A DNA stretch of 64,000 nucleotides from Deltaproteobacteria bacterium (GTDB taxonomy: Bacteria; Desulfobacterota; Binatia; HRBIN30; JACQVA1): NCBI GenBank assembly GCA_016178705.1, contig JACOST010000033.1, forward strand, positions 124,001 through 188,000. The letters run 5' to 3'. A program made the position numbers and the translations under genes. Under the pieces are notes generated by a model. That model was not told the origin of the DNA. It was given only the letters and a program-made list of their open reading frames with translations, and made no database searches. Positions 25,780 through 30,621 of the stretch are shown piece after piece; the first letter of the stretch is position 1; each line of letters opens with the position of its first letter.

Positions 25780-28700
25780 CTAGCCGCGCTGCATGCGGCT
25801 GAGGACGGCGCCGCGTTCGCCGACGTCGGCGGGCACGCCGTCGCGATAGAGGATCATCTGGCTCGAGAACGGCGAGACGCGTGTTCCCGGCGTCAGGATG
25901 CCGACGAGATTGAGCGGATCGGATGCGGCGATCAGTGCCGTCTCCCCGCCGGCGGCAGTGCGCCGGACGGCGCGCAAGGTATCGACCGCTTCCGCCAATG
26001 CAAACTGCTCGCCGATGAATCCGCCGACGAAGCGCCCGCCGCGGATCTCGCCGCGCGCTTCCATGCGGCGGTAGAGTCCGAGCAGCACGCGCCAGGCTGG
26101 TGCGCGCACTTCGCGCGCGAGCAGTTCGCGAAACACCACGCCGTAACGGCGCAGCAGTTGCCGCGCGATCAAATCGTGCGACACATCGTCGGCGCTCGAC
26201 GGCAGGCCGGGCGGCCGCAGCAGCGCCCAACGTCCGACGGGCATCAGGCGGCGCGCGGAACCGCCGCGCAGCGCGCGCAGTCGCCGCTGCGGTTGTCGTC
26301 GCTTCACATCGGGGAGCAGCAGCGTGCGCAAACCGGCAATGCCGTCGCCGGTGACCAGGCCGCGCGCGACCAGTTCCCACAACGCGTCTTCCGTCTGGGT
26401 TGGCAGCAAGCCGGTAGCTCGCGCGATGTCGGCGAGAAACGCCGCGCCGTAGCGTTCGAGGTGCGCGATCACGTCGCGCGCCGCCGACGACAGCTCGCGG
26501 AAAAGATCGACATCAGACGCGGCTGGCTCCAGCAGGGCGGGCAGCGCTTCGCGCAGGACCAACGCCAAGGGCGCGGCACGCGTCGGCGCAGCGCGCCGCC
26601 GGCCGCGCACGGGAGCGACAACGCCAGTGAGATGATCGGCGGGATCGTCGGTGTCGACGCCATTGCCAACGGGCGCGAGCCGCAACCGGCCCCACGCGAC
26701 TTCGCCGGCAAGGCAGAGCTGTTCGAGATCGGCGGGATTGTAGAGATCGACGCGCGCGGTGAGCACGTCGCGCTCCCACGCCGGCGCCGGCAGTTCGAGA
26801 CCTTGCAACTGCCCGATGATCTGCGCCACGCCATCGCGCCCGTGCAGTTGCGTGCCCGCGTGCACGTGCTGCCAGCGCATGAGGAAACGAATGAAGTCGG
26901 CCGCTGACACGGCTTCGATCTCACGCCGCAATCGGTTGATCGTGAGTCGATGAATGCGCGCCAGCAGTCGCCGCTCGCACCACTCTTCGGAAGGCTTCGA
27001 GGGTGTTACTGTGAAGCGTCCGCGCAGTACGACGCCTTCCGATTCGAGTCGCAGCAGCGCCGCGTCGATCTTGGACTCCGGTAAACCCAGAAGCGCGGCA
27101 AGCGCGGCACCGGTAGTCGGGCCGAGGCATTCCATCCAACCGTGAACGATCGCGCGCAGCGCGTCTTCGGGCTCGCAGTGAGGTGTGTCGGCGAAGGCCG
27201 CTAGGTGCGGATCGAACTGCACGTCCGGAACCGCGGCGGTGACGAGTGCGACGCGCTCGGCGGCGACCAGTGCCCGGTACTCGCCCCAGCGTGCGCAGGT
27301 GGCGCGGCGCTCGGCGATGAGTTCATCAACAAAGGCTGCCCACCGCGCGGCGTCGGCTCCGCGCTCTCCCGTTGAGACTGTCGATGAATTGATTGAAGAC
27401 GGGTCGGCGGAACCTTCCCCCTTTGAAAAAGGGGGATCGAGGGGGATTTGTTTGACTGATTCTTCGACAAATCCCTCCTGACCTCCCTTTTTCAAAGGGA
27501 GGGACCTGTTGCCCAAACGAAAGTCGACCTTGTCCTTGGAGGTAGGGAGCAGCACAACACTCAGCAACAGATCGTGCAACTCGTCGGCGTCGCGCACATC
27601 GGGCCAGGCTTGCGCCCGCACTTCGTCGATGGCCGCTGGATCGAGTGCGCCGATGCCGTTGGCGAGATCGGGATCAACGCGCCTTAGCGATACGGCGCGG
27701 GCGCGGCGCTCTTCCAGCGGCGCGTCGTCGAGGAACGCGTACGGGTTGGCGTTGAGGATCTCGTGCGACATCGGCGATGGCGCGGCGGTGTCGATCGACA
27801 CCGTGCGGATGTCACCGGCGATGATCGCGTCGAGCAGAGTCCGCAGGCCGTCGACGTCCATCGCTTCGCGCAGGCAGTTGTCGATCGTCTCGTTGACCAG
27901 CGGATGATCGGGCAACTCGATCGGGCCGCCGGGGTGATTGTCGCCACACGCGAGCTGCGCCGGGAACACCGCCGCGAGGAGATCTTCGGCGCGCATGCGC
28001 TGGATCGGCATCGGCACGCGCCGGCCGCCGGTGTGGCGCAGCAGTGCCAGCGCGCGAGTGGTGTTCCAGCGCCAGCGCGTGCCGAACATCGGCGCGGCGA
28101 GGGCGGCCTGCGTCAGATCTTCCTCGACCATGGCCGGGCGCACCATCTCGAAGACGTTTTCGAGCGGAAAACTGTGTTGCTCGCCGAGCGACAGCACGAT
28201 GCCATCGTCGGTGGCCGCCGCCTGCAACTCGAAGTCGAACGTGCGGCAAAACCGTTTGCGCAGCGCGAGGCCCCAGGCGCGATTGATGCGGCCGCCAAAC
28301 GGCGCGTGCACGACCAACTGCATGCCGCCGCTCTCGTCGAAAAACCGCTCGGCGATCACCGTGTCACGCGTCGGCACGGTGCCGAGCGCGGCCTGGGTCT
28401 CGGCGATGTAGGCGACGATCTGCTCGGCGCCGGGGCGATCGACGCCGCACGCCGCGACGGTCCACTCGGTCGCGCTCGCCGCGTCGGGCAGGCGCGTCGC
28501 GACTTGCCGGCGCAGATCGGCGACCGCCGCCGACAGTTCAGCGGTGCGCGACGGCGCTTCGCCCATCCAGAACGGAATCGTCGGCGGTGCCCCCTGCGCG
28601 TCTTCGACGCGCAGCCGGCCGGCTTCGACGCGTCGGATGCGCCACGAGCGATTACCGAGCAGGAAGATGTCACCGGCCATACTCTCGATGGCGAAGTCTT

Positions 28701-30356: not shown

Positions 30357-30505
30357 GTCTCAGTTTGAGCGCAACGGAAGTTGTCATTGCGAAGAACGGA
30401 GTGGCGAAGCAATCTCGTTGCGTGGGGTGCAGATCGATCTCCGTGCGCGCCACGAAGCGCATCGAGATTGCTTCGCCCCTTGCGGAACTCGCAATGACCT
30501 CACCG
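30357..30505. repeat. Dispersed palindromic element, copy B
   Basis: Same unit as at 22274-22417: GTCTCAGTTTGAGCG, then CATTGCGAAGAACGGAGTGG, CGAAGCAATCTCG, a variable centre, and GAGATTGCTTCGCCCCTTGC, GGAACTCGCAATGACC. Outer flank GTTTGAGCGC also matches copy A (GTTTGAACGT). By eye the two copies agree at most arm positions and differ mainly in the centre. Confidence 0.85.
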
Positions 30506-30536
30506 TGAAGTGATGGTATCGATTGCAAGCTGAGTC

Positions 30537-30605
30537 TGTAGGGTGGGCACTGCCCACCATGCATCGACTGGAATCGGACCGGATGGTGGGCGATGCCCAC
30601 CCTAC
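30537..30605. repeat. Palindrome with GTAGGGTGGGC arms
   Basis: Arms TGTAGGGTGGGCACTGCCCA then CCAT (30537-30560) and ATGGTGGGCGATGCCCACCC then TACA (30582-30605) are inverted copies with one mismatch each side of the centre; each arm itself contains the small palindrome TGGGCACTGCCCA. A non-coding hairpin element of a type common in environmental genomes. Confidence 0.8.
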
Positions 30606-30621
30606 ATTCGTAGCTCTCAGC

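Follow-up and report, generated by a model that had tools for sequence, protein, structure and literature searches.

An expanded linker of an Lhr-type helicase from the Binatia holds a dispersed palindromic repeat read in frame

How does a dispersed palindromic repeat come to be read as part of a helicase? The question is raised by lhr, a gene in the window (the whole 64,000-nucleotide stretch that was analysed, from the Deltaproteobacteria bacterium assembly GCA_016178705.1 of the Binatia). The first-pass annotation had described such a repeat inside this gene, in frame and without a stop or shift. We observed that the open reading frame was unbroken over all 1498 residues and that the palindrome was read through in frame, with neither a stop nor a shift. 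The protein contained the Pfam domains DEAD, Helicase_C, WH_Lhr, DEAD_assoc, WH3_Lhr and WH4_Lhr above cut-off, and its relatives in the PDB were 7lhl (E 2.6e-193) and 5v9x (E 2.7e-161). With the intact frame and the Lhr domains, this description of the locus was borne out. The coordinates of the features are collected in Table 1.

Table 1. Features of the lhr locus, in window positions.
Feature	Residues	Position	Strand	Basis or limits
lhr, Lhr-type helicase, 1498 aa		25780..30276	minus	ORF list, Pfam, PDB relatives
Expanded linker, 67 aa	912-978	27343..27543	minus	between ...LLLSVVLLP and WAAFVDEL; limits derived by hand from residue numbers
Repeat unit, 157 nt	914-966	27379..27535	minus	common to G000:C30:79880-80035
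Palindromic core, 81 nt	926-953 (LPLKKGGQEGFVEESVKQIPLDPPFSKG)	27419..27499	no strand	inverted-repeat search, folding, translation

The same features would be read differently if lhr were decaying, or if the locus were an assembly artefact. The host genome (G000) is a draft assembly in 33 contigs, and a cyclase-type gene on another of its contigs, C31, looks split. The best two NCBIfam helicase models scored 686.8/1496 and 674.7/849 bits against the Lhr protein, both under their curated cut-offs. Against this stand the unbroken frame, the Lhr domains above cut-off in Pfam, and a contig of 300 kb around the gene. A codon model also gave a coding score in the same frame on either flank of the palindrome, and the 6.1-Mb genome is 98% complete with 1.7% contamination. 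We therefore regard decay or artefact as very improbable.

Other repeats were seen upstream of lhr. An inverted repeat of the GCGAAGCAATCTCG type lies at 30400-30480, and an inverted pair of GTAGGGTGGGCACTGCCCACC-type repeats lies at 30528-30615. Since the GTAGGGTGGGCACTGCCCACC-type repeat also flanks a Y1 transposase gene elsewhere in the genome (G000:C28:765422, L332), this pair may be a RAYT-mobilised REP pair.

The palindrome within lhr has two arms of 33 nt (27419-27451 and 27467-27499), which are 85% complementary and have 15 nt between them. With up to two mismatches allowed, the 14-mer CCCTTTGAAAAAGG was matched twice in the window, without a mismatch each time, once in either arm and on opposite strands; the mean in 100 shuffles was 0.19 matches, and none reached two. 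The predicted fold of the coding strand was -58.4 kcal/mol, compared to -38.1 (SD 3.7) in 200 shuffles, of which not one was as stable (z -5.45). These properties, along with the other copies in the genome, confirm a dispersed palindromic repeat. Its placement at 27409-27510 was right insofar as this interval lies within lhr, where it encodes residues 923-956 (~922-956 had been given), but the palindrome proper has only 81 nt. The ends assigned to a ~102-base element could not be kept, since the duplicated unit is 157 nt long and the core of the family ~90 nt.

The 157-nt unit is shared with a copy on contig C30, which is intergenic and has another dispersed repeat upstream. The lhr and C30 copies were 87% identical (E 1.1e-47), a figure that describes identity only and implies no direction of copying, and in the joint alignment the likeness extended ~30 nt beyond the palindrome on each side. 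They differed at 24 of 158 positions (one of them a gap), with 11, 4 and 9 differences at codon positions 1, 2 and 3; as there was no excess at third positions, these few sites did not indicate that the peptide is under selection. Neither Pfam nor NCBIfam had a family that matched the 43-aa peptide of the insert. We also evaluated the interval 27300-27620 with Rfam, which returned 13 matches up to E 1, all far under the gathering score and mostly to microRNA hairpin families. A known Rfam family was dropped as a candidate, since no gathering score was reached and the matches were hairpin lookalikes only.

When the Lhr protein was compared with 30 homologues, the stretch between ...LLP and W was 6-9 residues long in 28 of them, as against 67 in the window's protein, the longest linker of the 31 sequences. 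The element's peptide was found in 0/30 homologue linkers. This alignment had been set as the refutation test of an insertion, and the insertion withstood it. The homologues were 29 non-own loci from 57 matching genomes (among them the host's own genome and many with a weak match to some other helicase), to which one region of G013 was added; the rows were selected by best BLAST match. Three homologues from the same order as the host (G002, G007 and G009; L022, L041 and L044) had a linker of 6. Against the structure 7lhl, query residues 904 to 980 aligned to chain residues 925 to 946, which leaves ~55 residues more in the window's protein. The excess over most homologues is ~60 residues, and not the ~34 first proposed; the 157-nt unit accounts for most of it. 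As judged from the aligned proteins, the Lhr segment is an insertion.

The two exceptions, G013 and G014, both come from another family in the host's order; their linkers of 36 and 46 residues lacked the element's peptide and were unrelated to it. By these lengths, the site is a linker that has grown in one neighbouring family too. In G014 the linker spans L098:925-1062; the query L098:1000-1250, which covers less than half of it, had one match besides itself, in G008, over 46 nt at 81%. Such linkers would be expected if this stretch simply grew by drift or slippage and in our protein merely resembles a repeat, as G013 and G014 show that it expands anyway. Drift or slippage would have to account, however, for 157 nt held at 87% identity in common with an intergenic site, for an 81-nt core in common with further copies, and for a CCCTTTGAAAAAGG motif that shuffles do not yield. 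We consider it hardly credible.

Among the genomes searched, no Lhr orthologue with an empty site was found from the same genus or the same family. G001, the host's sole family member among the 118 listed genomes, gave nothing better than 1.3e-11 to the Lhr protein. Neither the precise junction nor a target duplication can therefore be read at this locus.

The copy count proposed in the first-pass annotation gave four near-complete copies in the host genome at E <= 2e-16, plus weaker or partial ones. DNA matches to the palindrome family were obtained in 21 of the 118 genomes, the host's own included, and related elements are present in other families of the class. Many of these matches span one arm only (~36 nt), a pattern also known from REP and paired-REP families. 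In the 63 copies with a recognisable core (of 90 sites), conservation stopped 3-4 nt beyond CCC...GGG. A strict pattern run over the 118 relatives had its only matches in G000 (3 places) and G001 (1). A similar pattern gave a single match in genome_contigs, to an Elusimicrobia record, and a single one in viral_contigs. These palindrome variants, on an IMG/VR contig and an Elusimicrobia groundwater contig (L334, L093), hint at a broader spread.

Embedding in a protein had been called rare. We observed four protein-embedded copies in G000 alone (Lhr, C20, C31 and C15), the last of them partial, which does not agree with rarity. The C20 copy lies in frame at residues 2045-2075 of a 2973-aa ORF with cyclase, AAA_16 and SnoaL domains, the C31 copy in frame from residue 217 of a 677-aa ORF with SnoaL_2 and DUF4440 domains, and the partial C15 copy in a 1121-aa ORF with AAA_16. 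The copy at G001:C262 lies between two CoA_transf_3 stretches of an 880-aa ORF. Here the linker has 47 residues, compared to 19-49 in 14 homologues; an insertion is not proved by such a length alone, but the peptide is the one that the element encodes. Elsewhere in the class, a full copy was found in a multihaem cytochrome/TPR-type protein of G146 and a half copy in a UvrD-type helicase of G056. The copies in lhr, C20, C31, G001, G146 and G056 all use one frame (LPLxKGGxxGF...IPLxPPxSKGE, frame A). Other frames are used by the C15 copy and by a copy in a methylase-like ORF of G012.

Several of these loci had further features. The ORF at G012:C1 (L097:1330-4500) is 1057 aa long, has N6_N4_Mtase and DUF559 matches, and carries two copies of the LPVRGEGQGGGF repeat in addition to the palindrome; it possibly contains an intein. 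At G000:C31 (L100:470-7001), three adjacent same-strand ORFs in different frames jointly resemble one C20-like protein, and the gene may be broken. Both C20 (L099:4400-13318) and C31 (L100) have other in-frame repeat families in the linkers between their tandem SnoaL/DUF4440 units. These are a CTCCCCTTGGYAAGGGGAG palindrome (PSVSPLGKGRTKEG type) in 3 copies, a repeat read as SPLPLGEGEG...HPTPLPSGEG, and EGEPSGEPWAARSGSAGASPSQ. The two CoA-transferase domains form a single ORF in G001 (L106) and adjacent separate ORFs in G008:C14 and G014:C447.

We further examined the reading frame with a peptide search of stop-free ORFs in 148 genomes of the class. Among ORFs of at least 600 aa, frame A gave 5 matches, frame B 2 and frame C 0. 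One of the frame-B pair was scored intergenic, and the other, in a G109 ORF, was rejected as a chance match. With ORFs of at least 400 aa the numbers were 8, 6 and 3, most of the added ones being uninspected or N-terminal. The family copies matched in this search were stop-free in frame A in 6/6 cases, including two outside long ORFs. As the Lhr and C31 copies have a stop in one other frame, the preference for one frame is partly forced. The mean number of open frames per copy was 3.1 and 4.0 of 6 in G000 and G001, compared to 2.2-2.5 in relatives; this comparison is rough, since partial copies were counted for G000 and G001 only.

Copies inside and outside genes were counted with the codon model, which scores 180-nt flanks on both sides. 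In G000 and G001, 5/10 copies lay within long ORFs that code for Lhr, for two cyclase/SnoaL-type proteins, for an AAA/STAND-type ATPase and for the CoA-transferase; four of these five copies share a frame. In three copy-rich relatives (G011, G029 and G049), 2/81 were scored embedded and 79/81 outside genes (Fisher p 1.0e-4). The relatives thus keep the repeat almost wholly outside genes, and the host's small family has it half inside. The description of the family as usually intergenic holds for these three relatives. The sample from the host's family is 10 copies in two genomes, and includes the Lhr copy that prompted the study; C15, C22 and C11 entered the G000 table through DNA and pattern searches that were run differently from those in other genomes, and C28, a weak partial match, was scored not embedded and is among the ten. 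Without the partial, pattern-only copies C15 and C28 the comparison was 4/8 against 2/81 (p 4.0e-4), and without Lhr as well it was 3/7 against 2/81 (p 0.003). The copies scored in the relatives (41 in G011, 24 in G029, 16 in G049) are 81 of the 83 distinct copies listed, two listed G049 copies and two further G049 places from the DNA search being left out, and the copy numbers of all three genomes are lower bounds, since no more than 54 first-look candidates were scored in them.

The two embedded calls in the relatives were checked by eye. Both sit at the very start of their ORF in G049, L261 ahead of a plausible start and L265 at a signal peptide. When these two N-terminal copies were counted outside genes, p was 5.4e-6 (5/10), 2.9e-5 (4/8) and 3.2e-4 (3/7). 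At G029:C73 (L138/L241), G049:C47 (L265) and G082:C113 (L115), the palindrome lies directly ahead of the hydrophobic stretch of a signal peptide, in ORFs that look like solute-binding proteins. In these ORFs the palindrome may belong to the signal peptide or may not be translated at all.

The search for a parent transposase covered PF01797 only. In 8 genomes, 0/25 Y1 transposase loci had palindrome arms by pattern in the fetched flank, which was short at some contig ends. A RAYT was rejected as the mobiliser of the palindrome, since none of the 25 loci showed arms nearby. When 63 copies were scanned for target duplications, four had a repeat of at least 6, at inconsistent offsets, and no consistent duplication was seen across the 63.

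Together, these observations have led us to favour, with a probability of about four in five, the reading that a REP/MITE-like dispersed palindrome was inserted in a permissive linker of Lhr and was kept there as stop-free, in-phase, neutral filler. A palindrome with a ~90-nt core would have landed in the linker as a 157-nt unit, together with ~65 nt of flank, presumably by transposition. Copies of this subfamily lack stops in the frame named above, and the net change in length is a multiple of three, for which reasons the insert would have been retained. With no stop and no change of phase, the helicase core and the C-terminal domains would be left untouched, and the segment would probably be translated as a neutral peptide in a helicase that is still active. 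That the insertion is tolerated, as had been claimed, is suggested by the intact ORF. The repeat itself would be a palindrome, selfish or copied passively, that allows read-through and is retained when it falls in linkers, and like insertions would have occurred in other multi-domain proteins of the host lineage.

The insert might instead be functional, with an mRNA hairpin or a Pro/Lys/Gly-rich linker that tunes the translation of Lhr, its mRNA processing or the coupling of its domains. The strength of the in-frame hairpin (z -5.45) would fit this, and the hairpin might play a regulatory part. A half copy also lies in a UvrD-type helicase, and Di Nocera et al. 2013 (PMC3733652) speculate that REP insertions have altered replication and repair proteins. 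More of the embedded copies, however, lie in proteins not known for a part in repair (the two cyclase/SnoaL-type proteins, the ATPase, the CoA-transferase and the cytochrome), and the 11/4/9 distribution gives no hint of constraint on the peptide, over few sites. A functional insert is therefore unlikely in our judgement, and the reading as neutral filler is preferred. A wider reading, which we hold only tentatively and think rather doubtful, is that in the host lineage inter-domain linkers are general landing pads for palindromic repeats: with four repeat families in frame in linkers of the tandem-SnoaL proteins of C20 and C31 and with CCCCCTTTTTCAAAGGGGG as a stop-free coding insert in mostly one frame, linker length would evolve largely by the capture of repeats. 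If so, the CCCCCTTTTTCAAAGGGGG family would have spread through Lhr, the cyclase-type proteins and the CoA-transferase.

Protein-embedded palindromes are already in print for other bacteria, which also argues against rarity. Rickettsia palindromic elements (RPE; Ogata et al. 2000/2002) are palindromes of ~105-150 bp that are inserted in frame into unrelated protein genes and also occur between genes, according to PMC10969869 and PMC2229807. The lhr element has the same in-frame mode and the same palindromic form, the likeness being one of description, with no claim of RPE membership. In size and stem it falls near the RPEs (81-nt core, 157-nt unit, -58.4 kcal/mol), and it too lies in frame in unrelated proteins (Lhr, C20, C31, C15 and G001:C262). 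The hosts differ, as RPEs occur in Rickettsia and the relatives of the lhr element in other families of the class and in one Elusimicrobia record. Rickettsia are obligate intracellular bacteria, in contrast to a host with a genome of 6.1 Mb.

GTAG/CGTC REPs, as described by Di Nocera et al. 2013 (PMC3733652), occur in coding regions as palindromes and palindrome pairs; many of the intragenic ones lie in genes of DNA synthesis and repair, including a UvrD/REP helicase, and the repair genes concerned belong to several species. They were proposed to be neutral where they lie in flexible linkers or loops, and REP insertions were speculated to have altered replication and repair proteins. The main text of that paper does not mention Lhr. 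The lhr element resembles these REPs in being a palindrome within a coding region. It differs in its tags: GTAG is absent from both strands of 27379-27535, the sole CGTC (minus strand, 27398-27401) lies outside the palindrome, and no unpaired tag stands at the end of the hairpin. No Y1 gene was found beside a copy, and the arms are far longer than the 5-13 bp stems given in Table 1 of PMC3733652. Terminal inverted repeats, a trait of MITEs, are present in the form of the 33-nt arms. The enterobacterial RU-1/2/3 (ERIC-like) MITEs are units of 103-168 bp that keep the reading frame in annotated genes, as Delihas 2007 (PMC2759123) reports. By that description, they and the lhr element are alike in unit size and in-frame state.

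A text search of the accessible papers for six DNA and peptide strings of the element gave no match. The lhr element brings a new repeat family, and a lineage whose genome measures 6.1 Mb, to the protein-embedded palindromes already known. What it offers beyond the known systems is a testable contrast between lineages, with the repeat outside genes in three relatives and half inside, with one preferred frame, in one family. It suggests, too, that new protein linkers can arise by the capture of repeats.
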